In this document: positions 46,195-61,253 of the stretch, in pieces
Position numbering within the stretch: position 1 is the stretch's first letter
How the letters are laid out: every line of letters begins with the position of its first letter
Source: Caballeronia sp. M1242
Lineage (GTDB): Bacteria > Pseudomonadota > Gammaproteobacteria > Burkholderiales > Burkholderiaceae
Assembly: GCF_017220215.1 (NCBI RefSeq)
Contig: NZ_CP071131.1
Location: forward strand, 558,001 to 622,000
DNA length: 64,000 nt
Direction: 5' to 3'
Notes under the pieces: model-generated
The model's database searches: none
What the model saw: only the letters and a program-made list of their open reading frames with translations
What the model was told of the DNA's origin: nothing
Made by a program: the position numbers and the translations under genes

Positions 46195-47088
46195 ATGTCG
46201 CTTTCGAAAAGGCTCATTGACAGCGCTAAAGTCTTTCTGCCCGACGACGTCTTCTTGAGCTTCGTTCATCGCCGCCGGATCGGGCGATTTCCTAATCTCA
46301 AGCGTCCGCTCACCTTCAACGAACAGATCCTCAGCCGCTGCCTGCACCCGGATCCGCGCTACGTGGATCTCAGCGACAAACTCGCGGTGCGCGACTTCAT
46401 CGCCCAAAAGATAGGCCCGCAGTATCTGATTCCGTTGATCGCCGAGCCCGCCGTCTTCACCAAGACCGTCTTCGACCAGTTGCCCAACGAGTTCGTGATG
46501 AAGGCGAACCACGGCAGCGGCTTCGTGAAGGTCGTGCGGGACAAGAAAGATACGAGCTTCGAAGAACTGGCGGCGCTCGCGCAAGAGTGGCTCGCGACCG
46601 ACTTCTACAAGATCGCGCGAGAGCGGCACTATCGCGCCATCAAGCCGCGCGTGTACTTCGAAAAGCTGCTTCTCGACGACAACGGCGTCGTGCCGGCCGA
46701 CCTGAAGTTTCACGTATTCAACGAGAAGTCCGGCAAGCAGACCATCTACATCATGGTGATTTCGGATCGCTTCGGAGAGACGCCGCGCGGCGATATCTTC
46801 GATGTGAACTGGAATGTGCAGGACATCACGTTCGGCGCGTACGCGCGCAGCGAGACGCCTGTTCCTCGCCCCAAGAATCTGGACGCGTTGCTCGAAGTCG
46901 CGGACGCGCTCGCGAAGGACTTCGAATACGTGCGCGTCGATCTGTATTCGCGCAACGATGACATATTCTTCGGTGAGCTAACGTTCACGCCGGGCGCGGG
47001 CGTTTTGCGGATGCTTCCGGAAAGCGTCGACTATGAATGGGGCCGGCTGCTGCAGATGACACGCCGCCCGATGCGCGCCGGCGCGTAA
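46195..47088 (+). CDS. TupA-like ATP-grasp polysaccharide protein
   Basis: The 297-residue protein follows the TupA-like ATP-grasp family: an N-terminal region RRRIGRFPNLKRPLTFNEQI, the FVMKANHGSGFVKVVRDKKD glycine-rich nucleotide segment near residue 101, and EYVRVDLYSRNDDIFFGELT near residue 243 with metal-binding acids. Such proteins link amino acids or sugars onto surface polymers and are common in capsule and teichuronopeptide clusters. It begins the polysaccharide locus here. It is monocistronic, and the next gene is convergent. The attached group is unknown. Confidence 0.85.
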   Translation: MSLSKRLIDSAKVFLPDDVFLSFVHRRRIGRFPNLKRPLTFNEQILSRCLHPDPRYVDLSDKLAVRDFIAQKIGPQYLIPLIAEPAVFTKTVFDQLPNEFVMKANHGSGFVKVVRDKKDTSFEELAALAQEWLATDFYKIARERHYRAIKPRVYFEKLLLDDNGVVPADLKFHVFNEKSGKQTIYIMVISDRFGETPRGDIFDVNWNVQDITFGAYARSETPVPRPKNLDALLEVADALAKDFEYVRVDLYSRNDDIFFGELTFTPGAGVLRMLPESVDYEWGRLLQMTRRPMRAGA

Positions 47089-47258: not shown

Positions 47259-49067
47259 TCAATACGAAACCGACGGACGCCGGCGCCGCGCGCCATAGCC
47301 GCCGGCGTACGCGCGCGTGCGTCTTTCGTTCGGGCGCGGCATGTCGCCGTTGAACACCACGCCTACGACATGCGCGCCGACTTCATCGAGCTGCCGGACC
47401 GCCTCTTCCAGTTCGTCCTCGCTGCGCCGCCCCGGCTGCGCGACGAGCACCGCGGAGCCACCGAGCGCGGCGATGACGCTCGCATCGTCGACTGACAACA
47501 TCGGCGGGGTGTCCACGATGATCAGGTCGTAATGCGGTGCGAGTTGCTGAATGAGGCGCGGCAGGCGGCCGTTCGAGAGCAGTTCGACCGGATCCGCAGG
47601 CAGGCCGCCTGCAGGAATCACATCCACGCCCGTGCCCCCGACCGAGCGAATCACGCGATCGACGTTCACCATACCGTCGAGCACCTGCGCGAGCCCCGCG
47701 CTACCCGAAAGCCCGAACAGGAACGCCATCCGGCCGCGCCGCAGATCGCCGTCGATGAGCAGCACGCGCTTGCCGGCGCGGGCATTCACGCCTGCGAGAT
47801 TCGCGGCCACGAAGGTCTTGCCCGAGCGCGGCGCGGGCCCGGTCACGACGAGCAGCTTGCGGCGCCACGGCGCGCCCGCGAGCCGCATCCGCCTCGCGCG
47901 GCCGAATCCGAAGCGTTCGATCGGCGTCAGCGCGAAGCGCTCCTGCATGAACCATGTTCGCTTGGCCCGGTACGCGGCGAACCTCGGCCAGTAGAGGACC
48001 AGATAGGCGATCGGCACGAACGAGGTCACGGTCGTGATGCTGACCGTCGAGGTGACGAGAAGCAGCAGCAACATGACGAAGCCGTCGCTCGCGGTGAACG
48101 CGACTACGCCGAACAGCAGCAATGCGCTGAAAAGCCCCATGTCCGCGACGCTCGCGGGCAGGCCGGCAAACGGGATGCCGGCGGCGATCTCCGTCTGCAC
48201 GAGGCGCATGGACGGCATGTACATGTAGTGGGAGCGGACATCCTCCGCGTTGACGCCCGCGAGCAGGTCCTCCAGTCTCGCTTCGACCATGAAGGGGTAG
48301 CCGCCGAGACGGTGCGCGAAGGTGGTCGATCCGAAGAAGGCGTGATTGCCGAGATACACCGAAATGAGTCCGACGACGCCGATGAACGCCGTCAGAACGA
48401 CGAGCGGATGGATCAACCGCAGCTTGTGACGCATCGGATACAGCGCGAGGAAGATGAAGAGCACCATCGAAGACTTCGAGAAGGAGATGAAAAGGCCGAC
48501 GCAATAGAGCGCGACCACCTTCTTGTTGACCTTCTCGGTCAGCAGATACGCAATGAGCGATGCGACGAGCAACGACGAGAAGAACCCGGCTTCGCGCGAG
48601 AAGCCCGACACGCGCGCGAAGTAGAAGATCTCGAAGAAGTTCGTGTAAGTGCGCGTCGCGTAAGGGCCCCAGATCGTCTGCGCGAGTTGCGTCGGGCCGA
48701 GTTGCCAGGCGAGGCCCTTGTCGACGTAATAGAGCACGAACTGCAGCATCGCGAAGACGATGTTGATGCCCATCCAGTGATGCAGATAGCTGATGCGCCG
48801 GCCCATGGTGTACATCAGATAGCCGATGCAGATGGCAATGGACACCACGCGCGCGGCGACGCTCGGCGAACCGAGAAGACTCACCGCGACGGCCAGGACC
48901 AGTGGAACGCTCCAGTGCCGAACCGTGGCCGTGAGGAACCGCACGAACTTGGGGTCGAGAAACGGAATGAAGAGATAGAAATAGATCGTCGCGCCGTTGA
49001 CCTGCGGATTGAAGATCACGCAGGTGAAGAACATGTAAAAGAGAAAGGAGACGATCTTTGAATACAT
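47259..49067 (-). CDS. Fusion of Wzy-like polysaccharide polymerase and BY-kinase domain
   Basis: One uninterrupted 602-residue frame holds two proteins usually made apart. Residues 1 to about 385 form roughly ten or eleven membrane segments with the polymerase-like loop VSGFSREAGFFSSLLVASLI (near 165) and a long periplasmic section, as in Wzy/O-antigen polymerase proteins. From about 404 to the end is a complete bacterial tyrosine kinase: Walker A VVTGPAPRSGKTFVAANLA, Walker A' RVLLIDGDLRRG, Walker B DLIIVDTPPM, and a C-terminal tail with three tyrosines (RAYAGGYG, VSY). The kinase half resembles that of the Wzc encoded at 54143-56449. No Wzz-like adaptor precedes it. The ATG at 49067 has a clear AGAGGAAC ribosome binding site. 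Confidence 0.9.
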   Translation of the reverse strand: MYSKIVSFLFYMFFTCVIFNPQVNGATIYFYLFIPFLDPKFVRFLTATVRHWSVPLVLAVAVSLLGSPSVAARVVSIAICIGYLMYTMGRRISYLHHWMGINIVFAMLQFVLYYVDKGLAWQLGPTQLAQTIWGPYATRTYTNFFEIFYFARVSGFSREAGFFSSLLVASLIAYLLTEKVNKKVVALYCVGLFISFSKSSMVLFIFLALYPMRHKLRLIHPLVVLTAFIGVVGLISVYLGNHAFFGSTTFAHRLGGYPFMVEARLEDLLAGVNAEDVRSHYMYMPSMRLVQTEIAAGIPFAGLPASVADMGLFSALLLFGVVAFTASDGFVMLLLLLVTSTVSITTVTSFVPIAYLVLYWPRFAAYRAKRTWFMQERFALTPIERFGFGRARRMRLAGAPWRRKLLVVTGPAPRSGKTFVAANLAGVNARAGKRVLLIDGDLRRGRMAFLFGLSGSAGLAQVLDGMVNVDRVIRSVGGTGVDVIPAGGLPADPVELLSNGRLPRLIQQLAPHYDLIIVDTPPMLSVDDASVIAALGGSAVLVAQPGRRSEDELEEAVRQLDEVGAHVVGVVFNGDMPRPNERRTRAYAGGYGARRRRPSVSY

Positions 49068-49157: not shown

Positions 49158-50333
49158 TCAAGGCGAACGGCGCGCGTTCTCCTTGGCCGCCGTATCGCCG
49201 AGCGCAGATCGCGCGGGCGCTCGCCGCGTGGACGTCAACGCGTGACCGAGCCGGATGCACGGCGCTTCGACGATGCGAAACGCCACGGAAGACAACGCGA
49301 TTCCCAGGACGCCGGCCACGACCATGTAGAGAGCCAACGGGCCGCCGGTCCAACCGGCGCGCTGGCATCCCCAGTACAGCACATAGAGCGGGACGCCGTG
49401 CAGCAGATACAGCGAATAGCTCCGTTCACCGAGCCATGCGAACGACCGCCAGTGAATCTTCGCGACGGTGGCGAGCAGCGCGAAGATGCCCATGCCGACG
49501 AGATAGCTCACCGAGTTGATGACGTGCTCGCTGTCGTGCTGCTTGATGGCGACGGCGAACGTCAGCACCGAAATGCCCGCGACGACGCTTGTCACGGCAA
49601 GGAACGCGGTTCTATAGGACCAGTCGGCTCGCAGGCCGCGCGCGCCCGGAAATTGGAACACCACGCGCGCGCCGGGGTTGTCGTAGAAGTGCCGGAAACA
49701 GGCGCCCCAGAACATGATCGACAGGTGATACAGCATGCCCTTGTACTGGCCGAGCGCAGTGGGCGGCACGATCTTCAGCGCCGATGTGATAACGAACGCC
49801 GCGCCCAGCGAGACGCAAACCACGCAGAGGTCGCGCATGCGGTGAATCCGCCCTTGCCAAAAGAGCGCGAGGCACAGCACGTAAAATACGAGCTCCGTTT
49901 CGAGCGTCCAGTAGTGGCCCATCACTTCGGGATAGCCGAGCGGGCGCGGCACCATGGTGGCGTTCGCGAGCCAGCCCGCAGGCTCCAGTTGCTTCCCGAA
50001 GAGCATCCAGTACGCGAGAAAGCCGAGCGGGATCGACGCCCAGAACGCGGGATAAAGGCGGAAGAATCGCCTGATGAGAAACTGCCGCGTGCCGGGTCCG
50101 ATGGGACCGTGCAGGCTTTTCGGGATCAAGAGTCCGCTCAGCGCGAAGAAGACGACCACGCCGATCCGCCCGAAGTTGCCGTAGTGCTGGATCGCGTTGA
50201 GCCATTGCTCGGAGCCCGCGAGATCGGAGAATTTTTCCGCGTAGTGCGTCCACATCACGAACAGCACGGCGACGGCGCGGATCGCATCGACGTGCGACAT
50301 GCGGTTGGGCAGCGGTGATGTTTGCGCGTTCAC
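49158..50333 (-). CDS. Acyltransferase family 3 (OafA-like) membrane protein
   Basis: The 391-residue protein has about ten membrane segments and the acyltransferase-3 start VDAIRAVAVLFVMWTHYAEK (catalytic His in TM1), followed by FGRIGVVVFFALSGLLIPKS. These enzymes O-acetylate or succinylate sugars at the membrane. It lies 90 nt upstream of the Wzy-kinase fusion on the same strand, so it is probably cotranscribed and would modify the same polymer. Confidence 0.9.
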   Translation of the reverse strand: MNAQTSPLPNRMSHVDAIRAVAVLFVMWTHYAEKFSDLAGSEQWLNAIQHYGNFGRIGVVVFFALSGLLIPKSLHGPIGPGTRQFLIRRFFRLYPAFWASIPLGFLAYWMLFGKQLEPAGWLANATMVPRPLGYPEVMGHYWTLETELVFYVLCLALFWQGRIHRMRDLCVVCVSLGAAFVITSALKIVPPTALGQYKGMLYHLSIMFWGACFRHFYDNPGARVVFQFPGARGLRADWSYRTAFLAVTSVVAGISVLTFAVAIKQHDSEHVINSVSYLVGMGIFALLATVAKIHWRSFAWLGERSYSLYLLHGVPLYVLYWGCQRAGWTGGPLALYMVVAGVLGIALSSVAFRIVEAPCIRLGHALTSTRRAPARSALGDTAAKENARRSP

Positions 50334-54142: not shown

Positions 54143-56449
54143 CTATTCCTCTTCCGTGGCGAGATTCGACGTGTACGCGCTCGCGTAGGCATACGTGCGC
54201 TTCTCGCTGCGGCGCTTCGGCACCGCGTTGAAGATCACGCCCGCGATGCGCGCGCCAGTCAGGTCGAGCCGCTTGATGGCTTCCTGAAGTTCGTCCTCGC
54301 TTTGCGCGCTCGGCCGCACCACGATCACCGAGGAGCCGGCGTTCGCGGCGATCAGGTTCGCGTCGCTGACCGCGAGCACTGCGGGGGTATCGATGATGAC
54401 GAGATCGAACTGCTGCTGCATGTAGTCGAGGATCAACGGCAGGCGCGGCGTCGAAAGCATCTTCGACGGATTGGCCGGGAAGCGGCCGGCCGTCATGAGC
54501 GAAAGCCCCGGCACGTCGCTCTCGCGAATGGCCTGATCGACCTGAATCTTGCCGGCGAGCACTTCTGCGAAGCCGTTGCCGCCGTTCTGACCGAAGATCG
54601 ATGCAATGCGTCCGCGTCGCATGTCGCCGTCGATCAGCAACACGTTCTTGCCGGTTTGCGCGTGCAGCACGGCGAGGTTCGAAGCGACGAACGTCTTGCC
54701 GGTTCCGGGCGTCGCGCCGACGACCGCGAGAATATTGTTCGGGGCGGGCGCGATATCCAGCATCAGCGACGCATGCACCGCGCGCAACGCTTCCACGGCC
54801 ATGTCGCGATTGCCGAGCGCCGACAGCGCGTGGCTGCCTTCGACCGACCCCGCGTTCGGATCGTCGCTCAGTACGCGGCGCGACACATCGTTGATGACCG
54901 AGGGCAGACGACTCTTGCCGGGCAGAAGCGAAGGCCTGGCCGTGCGGTCGAGCCGCGCCTGCATCGGGCTGAAGCTCACTGCGCCGAACACCGGCAGGCT
55001 GAGACGGCTCTCGACCGAGTGCGGCGTCTTCACCGCGCGCGAAAGCTGATCGCGGAAGAACACGAAGAGAATGCTCAGGATCACGCCACCTGCGGCGCCG
55101 CCCGCCATGACCAGCATGCGCTTGGGCTTGGACGGTTCGGTCGGATAAATGGCCGAGTCGATCAGATGCACATTGCCGATGGTGCCCGCGCGCGTGACGG
55201 CCAGTTCGCTTGCTTTTTTGCGCATGGCGACATAGATGTCCTCGGCCACCTTTGAATCGCGCGTCAGGTCCATGAGCTTGCGCTCGGAGCCGGGCAGTTG
55301 CCCGAAGCGTTTGTCGAAGGCCTGCTTTTGCGCGTTGAGCGTGGCGAGCTGTTCGTCGATGGTGCGGACTTCGCGCGTCGTCGGCGCGAAGCGGCTCGCC
55401 ATCTGCGTGCGCTGCATGGTGAGCGCCGCAATCTGCCGTTCGATGTCGATGCTGCCTTGCAGATACGACGTCGCTTCGGTGCCCGGCTGCATGGAGTTCG
55501 ACGACTTGCGGTAATTGCTCAATTCACTCTCGGCGCGTTGCAGTTCACGCTCGAGACGCGGCAGCTCGCCGATGATGAAGTCGCGCGTGACACTCGCTTC
55601 TACGCGATGCTGGTCGATGTGCGCGGCGATATAGGTCTGCGCGATCGCATCGGTGATTTGCTGCGCGAGCTTAGGGTCATCGTTCTCGTAGACGACCTGG
55701 ACGACGCCCGAGTCCTTGGTCGACTCCATCACCTTCAGGCTTTTCTGGAAGCGCGAGACGGCCTGATACTCGCTGAAACGCACGACCTTGAACTCGGTGC
55801 CGGGACGCGCGACCAGCTTGTCCACCATGATCGAGATTCCGTCGGCATTCGTCAGATGACCGACGGTGCCATGCAGGATCGAGTTGCCGTCGGAGTCCGT
55901 CAACTCGTAAGCGCCCTGCGGCAGCGCGCGCAGGATGAATGCCTTGTTTTCCAGACGCGGCGGTACCTCCAGCGTGCTGATGTCCGCATCTTCTCCGCCC
56001 CACGCGAACGACTTCAGACCGAGAACCGGCGCCATGGGTTGCCCCGGCGTGGCGAACATGCTCGAAATGCGCCCGAGGAGCGGCACCTGTCTCGGCGTGA
56101 TAGAGAGATTCTGATGGTACTTCTTGATCACTGGCAAAAGGACGGCGCGGCTTTGCATGATCTGCATTTCGGCATCCGTCGGCAACGTGGCCGGACCCGC
56201 CTGCTGTTGCCCTTGTGTGTTCACGCCGAGCGCATTGGGATTCGGGAAATCCACTTTGATGAGTGCGTCCGACGAATAGACCGGTGTGGCGATGAACGCG
56301 TACAGCGTCGCCAGGCCTGTCACCAGGACGATGATCCCGAGCACGAGCCACACGTTATCGACCATCAGCTTCCAAAAGTCACTCGCTGAAAAGCTGTCGT
56401 CTCGCGTGCGCGCGGGGACTGGATCGATCCCAAGAACTGGTGTGTTCAT
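54143..56449 (-). CDS. Wzc-type polysaccharide co-polymerase and tyrosine autokinase
   Basis: The 768-residue protein has an N-terminal Wzz domain with a membrane segment (NVWLVLGIIVLVTGLATLYA near residue 32), a long periplasmic coiled region, a second segment (MLVMAGGAAGGVILSILFVF near 455) and a cytoplasmic BY-kinase: Walker A VVGATPGTGKTFVASNLA, Walker A' NVLLIDGDMRRG, Walker B LVIIDTPAVL and a tyrosine tail RTYAYASAYTSNL. It controls chain length and export of the polymer through phosphorylation. The kinase part is similar to the domain fused to the polymerase at 47259-49067. No Wzb phosphatase gene is near. Confidence 0.95.
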   Translation of the reverse strand: MNTPVLGIDPVPARTRDDSFSASDFWKLMVDNVWLVLGIIVLVTGLATLYAFIATPVYSSDALIKVDFPNPNALGVNTQGQQQAGPATLPTDAEMQIMQSRAVLLPVIKKYHQNLSITPRQVPLLGRISSMFATPGQPMAPVLGLKSFAWGGEDADISTLEVPPRLENKAFILRALPQGAYELTDSDGNSILHGTVGHLTNADGISIMVDKLVARPGTEFKVVRFSEYQAVSRFQKSLKVMESTKDSGVVQVVYENDDPKLAQQITDAIAQTYIAAHIDQHRVEASVTRDFIIGELPRLERELQRAESELSNYRKSSNSMQPGTEATSYLQGSIDIERQIAALTMQRTQMASRFAPTTREVRTIDEQLATLNAQKQAFDKRFGQLPGSERKLMDLTRDSKVAEDIYVAMRKKASELAVTRAGTIGNVHLIDSAIYPTEPSKPKRMLVMAGGAAGGVILSILFVFFRDQLSRAVKTPHSVESRLSLPVFGAVSFSPMQARLDRTARPSLLPGKSRLPSVINDVSRRVLSDDPNAGSVEGSHALSALGNRDMAVEALRAVHASLMLDIAPAPNNILAVVGATPGTGKTFVASNLAVLHAQTGKNVLLIDGDMRRGRIASIFGQNGGNGFAEVLAGKIQVDQAIRESDVPGLSLMTAGRFPANPSKMLSTPRLPLILDYMQQQFDLVIIDTPAVLAVSDANLIAANAGSSVIVVRPSAQSEDELQEAIKRLDLTGARIAGVIFNAVPKRRSEKRTYAYASAYTSNLATEEE

Positions 56450-59918: not shown

Positions 59919-61253
59919 TTACTGAGCGGTATCCAGATTGACGTGATGCGGGCGGCTCACGGTCCTCTCCGTGTGAATGAGAGCCGTGGCAGCGGAAGGT
60001 TTGAAGCCGGACGCGAGCGCCGCGACAGCCGAGCCGACGCCGCGAATCGCCGCGTGCTCCCAGCTGTGCGCGGCGCGCGGCTCGCCCGGCGCATGCGGCG
60101 CCCAGCCGTGGAAGCTCAGGAACGGCCCGCCGCCCGTTCTGGCGCGACTGTAGGTCCTTGCTCTCTCGGTCAGCGACGCGAGCATGCGTTGCTCGGCCAC
60201 ATCCGCGCGACGTCTCAGCGTCTCGAGCACGGACATCGCGGCGGCCAGCGATTGCACGAGCACCGGTATCGCACGGCCAACGCCCACGTCCAACAGACGC
60301 AACACGCGAGAGAGGTCCGCAGTATCGTCCGCGAGTTCGCGGCTTGCGAGCACGATAGCGGCATCGGACGAGCCGCGCGCCATCTCGAAGAGACTCAAAG
60401 CATCAGCGACCGTGAACCGGTCTAGCGCGTGCATTCGCATCGCTGCGAAGCCGAGCGCGCATCCGCTCAACGCGTCTTCGCCGACGCCCTGCCAGTCAAA
60501 GCCGTCGGACAGTTCACGCGCAACGCTATTCCCATGCTGAGACTGATTGAGCGAGAGAAGCGACAGCAAGGTGTTTCGCGGCCCTGCGGACACGCGCGAC
60601 ACCACGATATTCAGCGCATCCCTGCTTGAAGACCCCGCCGCGTTCGCCGTGAGCAGTACCTTCACGTGTCCCTCTGGCAGCGATACGAAACGGGGTTCGA
60701 TTTCCGGCCCGCCGATCTGCAACAGCGACGGCTCGTGCGTCGTCAGTTCGAACTGCTTCGCATAGCCGTTCGATTTCTCGTCGCTTATCAGGAGATCGAC
60801 AGGACGCCATGCGCCGAGCCGGCGCGCCCAGAGTTTTCCCCAGACATGATAGGCAGGCGTGTCGGCGAAAAGCGCGCGCGCGCCGCGCGTCAGGTCCACG
60901 TCTGCGGCAGCCCACATGAGCCACTCTGGAATGTCGTCGGGAACGAGGTCGATCGTATGTTGAGCGAAGCGACCGATCAGCGGAATGCGGCGCGTGATGG
61001 TCGATCCGTTCCGAGTGGCGAGCTCGACGACGACGAACGACAAGCCGCCATGCCGGCTTGCGCCGCGACTATCGGCCTGTTCGCGTCCGCGATACGCGTC
61101 GTCCGGCAATTGAACCGTCGTTGGCCGCCTGGTTGAGAGAATGACGCGCTCAACGAGTGAACCGAACTCACTCTTTATTTCAGCAGGCAGTGCCACATCC
61201 CCTTCATCATCGTCAGTCAGCGACGCGAGGCTGAGAATAACGACTCGGCTCAT
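59919..61253 (-). CDS. Unrecognised 444-aa protein in the polysaccharide locus
   Basis: The protein starts MSRVVILSLASLTDDDEGDV and has good coding character. The N-terminal half is strand-rich (GGLSFVVVELATRNGSTITR, EPRFVSLPEGHVKVLLTANA) and the C-terminal half is helical (AIPVLVQSLAAAMSVLETLR). No signal peptide or membrane segment is clear. No domain is recognised. It converges on one GT4 gene and lies downstream of another on its own strand, so a role in polymer synthesis or its regulation is possible, but nothing in the sequence says which. Confidence 0.75.
   Translation of the reverse strand: MSRVVILSLASLTDDDEGDVALPAEIKSEFGSLVERVILSTRRPTTVQLPDDAYRGREQADSRGASRHGGLSFVVVELATRNGSTITRRIPLIGRFAQHTIDLVPDDIPEWLMWAAADVDLTRGARALFADTPAYHVWGKLWARRLGAWRPVDLLISDEKSNGYAKQFELTTHEPSLLQIGGPEIEPRFVSLPEGHVKVLLTANAAGSSSRDALNIVVSRVSAGPRNTLLSLLSLNQSQHGNSVARELSDGFDWQGVGEDALSGCALGFAAMRMHALDRFTVADALSLFEMARGSSDAAIVLASRELADDTADLSRVLRLLDVGVGRAIPVLVQSLAAAMSVLETLRRRADVAEQRMLASLTERARTYSRARTGGGPFLSFHGWAPHAPGEPRAAHSWEHAAIRGVGSAVAALASGFKPSAATALIHTERTVSRPHHVNLDTAQ

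Follow-up and report, generated by a model that had tools for sequence, protein, structure and literature searches.

Can a polysaccharide polymerase of the Wzx/Wzy type carry its own tyrosine-kinase domain, and, if such a protein is real, what would the attached domain do there? The question is raised by a single gene in the stretch of DNA analysed here, hereafter the window (64,000 nucleotides of Caballeronia sp. M1242, G000:C3:558001-622000, from a genome of 5.76 Mb on four contigs). The gene occupies window positions 47259-49067 on the minus strand, starts with ATG and comprises 602 codons with no internal stop in the ORF check, and AGAGGAACTC precedes this ATG closely. The protein is composed of a membrane half (residues 1-370, 47958..49067), a basic linker (residues 371-403, 47859..47957), a BY-kinase domain of the MinD/ParA P-loop type (residues 404-580, 47328..47858) and a short C-terminal tail (47262..47327), all on the minus strand. 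A preliminary description of this DNA had claimed that one open reading frame joins a multi-pass half to a BY-kinase at this place, which is borne out and conserved across species: the entire fusion is present and free of stops in 8 of the 58 genomes of the genus (identity 64-100%), ruling out the misassembly or frameshift at the join that the same description had raised as a possible source. The in-frame fusion is thereby confirmed as real. Its nearest relative (G049) shares 92% identity over the whole fused protein and 94% over the N-terminal half, and besides the genome of the window, G039 and G040 the carriers are apparently C. megalochromosomata, C. arvi, C. novacaledonica, Caballeronia sp. 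GAFFF1 and Burkholderia sp. 8Y.

The membrane half also exists on its own. It is 70-94% identical to 14 other copies in the genus, seven unfused copies of 400-430 aa are spread over six other genomes of the same genus, and unfused copies occur in Paraburkholderia. The genome searches sampled each group: among the matches listed for 398 genomes of the family, the membrane half was found in 20 and fused in just the eight, as judged from open-frame length, and among those listed for 399 genomes of the order the window's own genome was the only match. A scan of genome contigs returned 21 loci, at five of which the kinase follows in a continuing frame.

Residues 1-370 contain about eight hydrophobic segments and are not matched convincingly by any family of Pfam, NCBIfam or PHROGs or by PDB sequences, the best being a weak match to DUF420 in 6 of the 15 relatives scanned (best E 0.0013). 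No Wzy or O-antigen polymerase family of Pfam, NCBIfam or PHROGs was matched, which is weak counter-evidence because the sequences of Wzy proteins are highly variable. A profile link to Wzy_C proteins was sought by hhalign against 20 Wzy_C ORFs and none was found (probability 0.3%, while two unrelated alignments used as controls gave 0.1% each), this being a weak test because the query profile of the family is shallow (Neff 2). No confident fold came out of AlphaFold modelling (pLDDT of 33-73 per block across residues 1-370), and the check for a GT-C-like fold gave just these values. As a convincing family match is missing, we infer the Wzy-like nature of this half from topology and gene context, which make a Wzy polymerase very probable; the earlier assignment as Wzy-like polymerase thus fits in these two respects, and lacks a convincing family match and a confident fold.

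The context in question is that of exopolysaccharide clusters. In P. solitsugae, the homologue comes after wzc in a cluster that also has a Polysacc_synt flippase, glycosyltransferases and an acyltransferase; in P. largidicola, it shares its cluster with a GDP-mannose dehydratase, a Wzc-sized kinase-matching protein, glycosyltransferases, two flippases and rfbA/rfbB; and near the P. kururiensis copy there is a Bac_transf initiating transferase. The missing Pfam/NCBIfam match, the weak DUF420 hits, the negative comparison with Wzy_C ORFs (with its shallow profile) and the poor structural model would suit another multi-pass protein of the locus, e.g., an unknown transporter or a ligase, whose function the kinase would tune, but this is very improbable given that the homologue is the sole protein with more than two hydrophobic segments besides the assigned flippase/acyltransferase in the clusters of P. 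solitsugae (11 ORFs examined) and P. largidicola (12 ORFs examined), and that it lies immediately 3' of wzc in five of the six Paraburkholderia loci L067-L072. The polymerase reading would also have fallen with an N-terminal half of the Wzz/CpsC type, and such an identity is ruled out: the fusion matched neither Wzz nor GNVR nor WZC_N, all three of which match the separate Wzc of the window, and the number of hydrophobic segments points the same way. Like WzyE of the WzyE-WzzE complex, as portrayed in the available part of PMC10030265, the membrane half is a multi-pass protein in a Wzx/Wzy-type gene context, and it differs from Wzy polymerases in having a sequence not detectably related to Pfam Wzy_C proteins and in carrying a BY-kinase domain. 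Together with its homologues it defines a probable Wzy family of Paraburkholderia/Caballeronia that has no Pfam or NCBIfam model.

For the kinase half, matches to Pfam AAA_31 (residues 415-532) and to the tyrosine autokinase model TIGR01007 (residues 403-574, E 1.4e-36) are above cut-off, and the closest solved relatives by sequence are BceF (6z0p) and Etk (3cio), with E ~1e-39. The AlphaFold model of this half has pLDDT values of 69-88 in blocks of ten over residues 401-570 and 49 for 571-580, and Foldseek on the model returned BceF, Etk and Wzc kinases as leading matches, with BceF 6z0p best (E 5e-13); because AlphaFold is good for the kinase and poor for the membrane half, Foldseek informs the kinase half alone. 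Walker A (GPAPRSGKT, residues 410-418, 47814..47840), Walker A' (LLIDGDLR, residues 436-443 with D439 and D441, 47739..47762) and Walker B (IIVD, residues 516-519 with D519, 47511..47522; all minus strand) are present, as first described. The tyrosine tail that had been attributed to the protein does contain three tyrosines, and the YxY of Wzc tails is absent from it. The domain is homologous to that of Wzc/PCP-2a proteins such as E. coli K30 Wzc and Burkholderia BceF, the latter being the best match in both sequence and fold. Whereas in Wzc the kinase sits on a Wzz/GNVR co-polymerase and mostly has a YxY tail, in the fusion it sits on the polymerase, with neither GNVR/Wzz nor YxY.

In a model of active phospho-control, the fused domain would function as a tyrosine kinase that phosphorylates its own tail, or would be phosphorylated by Wzc, and would thereby switch the polymerase directly. 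The window protein, in which no Walker motif is missing and the tail has three tyrosines, the invariance of K417, T418, D439 and D441 across the eight fused proteins, and the fact that the closest solved relative, BceF, is a BY-kinase would all agree with such active control, but the tails and motifs across the eight proteins make it unlikely. YxY is found in none of the eight fused proteins and in neither of two stand-alone kinases related to them (see below), versus 50 of 53 Wzc rows; the fused tails hold 3, 3, 1, 1, 1, 1, 1 and 0 tyrosines (the zero belonging to G040), so that at least two are present in 2/8 versus 53/53 Wzc rows. Partial losses have damaged Walker A, A' or B in four of the eight (G020, G039, G040 and G041): the full Walker A is retained in five and incomplete in three, A' is present in seven, its Arg being lost in G040, and B is likewise present in seven, with its Asp lost in G041. 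Among the 53 Wzc rows, many of which are near-duplicates, Walker A is complete in 47, A' in 53 and B in 51, and YxY is missing in three. With the tail eroded and the Walker motifs damaged in half of the proteins, the direct phospho-control that had been proposed is unsupported as a conserved property. The fused domain appears to be turning into a pseudokinase in some species; in the species of the window, which retains every Walker motif and three tail tyrosines, the domain may still have some kinase activity.

A further feature concerns the segment ahead of Walker A, where all nine Wzc proteins of these loci (two by inspection) have a helix that we take to be EX2RX2R-like (EALRAVH, EALRAGH or DALRAVH). 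When looked for in the eight fused proteins it was absent from every one, which speaks against the fused domain entering the Wzc ring through the contact normally used. Of the two stand-alone kinases, one matches the pattern.

Selection was estimated as dN/dS over six species pairs, using YN00 for all values of four pairs, and NG86 for the other two and for the tail. With YN00, the membrane half gave 0.025, 0.025, 0.065 and 0.116, the fused kinase 0.068, 0.199, 0.210 and 0.274, and the kinase of the species' own Wzc 0.022, 0.029, 0.050 and 0.053. The gap is smaller in the two NG86 pairs (membrane half 0.087 and 0.129, fused kinase 0.186 and 0.166, Wzc kinase 0.133 and 0.096), and for G000/G020 the constraint on the kinase half is almost as tight as that on the membrane half (0.17 vs 0.13); the Wzc of G020 ends at a contig end, which makes its N-part dN/dS values meaningless. 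The kinase core, with 0.07-0.30 across the six pairs wherever either method gave a value, is under purifying selection, yet looser than its neighbors. The tail (NG86 values of 0.21, 0.87, 0.41, 1.62, 0.89 and 0.39) is loosely constrained and near neutral in half of the pairs, and the three values above 0.8 again speak against phospho-control through it. Since 8 of 58 genomes carry the fusion stop-free and both the membrane half and the kinase core have dN/dS values well under 1, its retention reflects more than chance. A passenger in slow decay, joined to wzy by chance, with little function left and kept since its loss would disturb the C-terminus of the polymerase, would account for the motif losses, the shortened tail and an evolution faster than that of the own Wzc kinase. 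The constraint on the core, however, weakens this explanation, with a dN/dS of 0.20 even in the most eroded pair, and none of the eight genes has acquired a stop; we consider it to have a low probability.

Where the domain came from can be read from two sets of trees. In a polymerase tree of 24 rows, the eight fused proteins group as a single clade (100/100), which is surrounded first by unfused Caballeronia copies and further out by those of Paraburkholderia, and because of this the fusion probably arose in a single event. For the kinases, a quick tree of 63 rows, in which identical sequences were entered once (that of L073 standing for the identical fused kinase of G049), was complemented by a careful tree of 37 rows that left out 26 of the 63, namely 4 long-branch and 22 other Wzc sequences, mostly near-duplicates. 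In the careful tree the fused kinases group together (99/98) and are sister (100/98) to two stand-alone kinases from C. concitans and C. grimmiae, with 100/100 for both together, and in the kinase trees this group sits within the Wzc kinases of this locus type. The stem of G039/G041 measures 1.06 changes per site in the kinase tree vs 0.14 in the polymerase tree. A profile of six fused and the two stand-alone kinases, run over the 398 family genomes with the best seven candidates scored per genome, gave these eight at least 324 bits; the next among the matches listed were Wzc-type proteins at no more than 252 bits, and the fused kinases outside the profile (G039 and G041) scored 215-221, among the Wzc values. 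Stand-alone sister kinases thus number at least two in the family sample, among the matches listed and the best seven candidates per genome.

These comparisons support the Wzc kinases of this locus type as the lineage from which the fused kinase descends. The earlier proposal that a duplicated kinase of the nearby Wzc had been captured holds as far as this lineage is concerned, and fails with regard to a fresh copy of the adjacent gene: the fused kinase branches with the stand-alone kinases, outside the Caballeronia Wzc clade. Fission, with the stand-alone kinases being broken fusions, is disfavoured as the polymerases of C. concitans and C. grimmiae lie outside the fused clade; the kinase tree alone is indecisive on this point. 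A candidate second Wzy-kinase fusion in Sinorhizobium (70% query cover) was by reading a 664-aa protein with a Wzz-like N-terminus.

The neighborhoods overlap as well. The stand-alone kinases face a TupA-type ATP-grasp gene in convergent orientation and have a tyrosinase-type gene close by, and the window has a TupA-like ATP-grasp gene (46195..47088, plus strand, PF14305) convergent with the fusion, a relative of which also stands beside the stand-alone kinases. Neighbors common to stand-alone kinases and fusions are TupA in the window's genome, TupA plus tyrosinase in G040 and TupA two genes off in G049; in all, TupA was found in three of the eight fused stretches (L038, L039 and L043), which are of unequal length.

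The linker itself aligns with the leader of the stand-alone kinases. Its DNA and the leader of the C. grimmiae kinase align without gaps, GAGGAG...ATG there corresponding to CAGGAG...ACG in the window, so that CAGGAG at codons 375-376 (47940..47945, minus strand) and the ACG codon of T381 (47925..47927, minus strand) may represent the fossil ribosome-binding site and start codon of a formerly separate kinase gene. AGGAG occurs in four of the eight fused genes, AGGAA in one and neither in three, and none has an ATG at the position aligned with the presumed stand-alone start. At odds with the fossil reading, the annotation of C. grimmiae Lep1A1 puts the kinase start ~70 bases downstream of the start we infer. 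An internal start from which the kinase would be translated on its own was considered and rejected, as reading the linker DNA revealed no conserved ATG accompanied by a ribosome-binding site at a suitable distance; among the fused proteins, M394 is present in G000 and G049 only. The dN/dS of the linker was 0.03-0.12 in three close pairs and 0.25-0.64 (NG86) in the other three.

What, then, would the domain do? We favor, at a probability of about 0.5, a docking or allosteric module that tends towards a pseudokinase and couples Wzy to the Wzc kinase ring. This is the economical reading because the ratchet motif is gone and a full Wzc is retained: the window encodes a full-length PCP-2a Wzc with its own BY-kinase and a YAYASAY tail (54143..56449, minus strand; WZC_N, Wzz, GNVR and AAA_31 matches), and a full Wzc is present in seven of the eight fused loci, that of the eighth being cut by a contig end. 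According to the accessible text of PMC10030265, one copy of WzyE lies in the lumen of a WzzE octamer, and in that of PMC11986026 the Wzc octamer is proposed to assemble around or enclose Wzy, with the YxY ratchet in the Wzc tail driving disassembly. A Wzy-type exopolysaccharide polymerase would be pictured as having captured a BY-kinase domain at its C-terminus, which would be cytoplasmic, as a kinase would need. With one Wzy inside the lumen of the Wzc octamer, the attached domain would be placed within or below the ring that the eight Wzc kinase domains form, and might contact these domains or their tails in a nucleotide-dependent manner and so tie Wzy activity to the Wzc assembly cycle, its main action being something other than phosphorylating itself or the polymerase. 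More tentatively, and with some doubt, the polymerase might bring a ninth kinase-like domain into the center of the Wzc octamer, a hub without ratchet that uses covalent coupling instead of phosphorylation and senses or sets ring assembly.

A known BY pseudokinase offers both a parallel and an objection to the docking module. EcpK, as presented in the available part of PMC12004946, is proposed to be a phosphorylation-independent scaffold of its co-polymerase, and the fused domain resembles EcpK/HfsB pseudokinases in having a BY-kinase fold and having lost the tyrosine tail. EcpK is, however, a stand-alone protein that has lost all Walker motifs and works with a co-polymerase without kinase, whereas the fusion mostly keeps its motifs next to a complete Wzc (comparison from the same part of PMC12004946), and the EcpK-type loss of all Walker motifs and tail tyrosines is not seen in the window protein, which keeps them. 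In the same text, the authors argue against EcpK acting through binding of active BY-kinases, which counts against the docking reading. The stand-alone BY-kinases of the CpsD/CapB type are a second comparison: the C. concitans and C. grimmiae sisters have the size of such proteins, and one is annotated as CpsD/CapB family. In firmicutes, kinase and transmembrane partner are two proteins of one operon, going by the portion of PMC8394532 at hand, in contrast to the domain of the window, which is joined covalently to the polymerase.

A Wzy-BY-kinase fusion was not found in the literature as covered by titles and abstract openings, with preprints and most subscription journals outside the scope. 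A 2025 review states in its available part that no Wzy structure has been solved (PMC12004945), and the known WzyE-WzzE complex is described as low resolution and kinase-free in the accessible sections of PMC10030265. The fusion bears on the way in which Wzy is controlled by the cycling of BY-kinases. The natural covalent link suggests that polymerase and kinase domain come close enough to be joined, and it provides a ready construct to trap the complex; those species that keep the fusion intact although their kinase motifs are eroded are a natural test of contact versus phosphorylation.

Upstream of the fusion, an Acyltransferase_3 gene (49158..50333, minus strand, PF01757) ends 90 bases before the fusion start on the same strand, and the window also holds glycosyltransferases and two proteins with weak glycosidase-type matches or relatives. 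In the window's genome, matches to the initiating transferase (PF02397), Wza (PF02563), the low-molecular-weight phosphatase (PF01451) and one flippase family (PF13440) were located on other contigs only, and the system may borrow these components in trans. Besides the fusion, the four contigs hold five Wzc-sized BY-kinase matches and one low-molecular-weight tyrosine phosphatase match.

Several minor observations were made along the loci. The membrane-half family (window 47958-49067 and the unfused homologues of L067-L072, L074-L076 and L151) is often located directly downstream of wzc. In C. novacaledonica, a tandem wzc pair (L041 1327-3645 and 3802-6138) lies beside the fused polymerase locus. 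A tyrosinase-domain protein stands beside the TupA-kinase module or wzy at L043 3825-5390, L053 5551-7071, L054 6358-8127 and L046 1916-3439, PF00264 having been scanned in L043 and the other three assigned via clustering. Just outside the window, at the other end of the exopolysaccharide cluster, there is a second TupA-like ATP-grasp gene (L148 7470-8348, on the scale of the window 64470-65348). Finally, a 444-aa protein with no Pfam match is encoded at window positions 59919-61253 and recurs in some related clusters (cluster c9).
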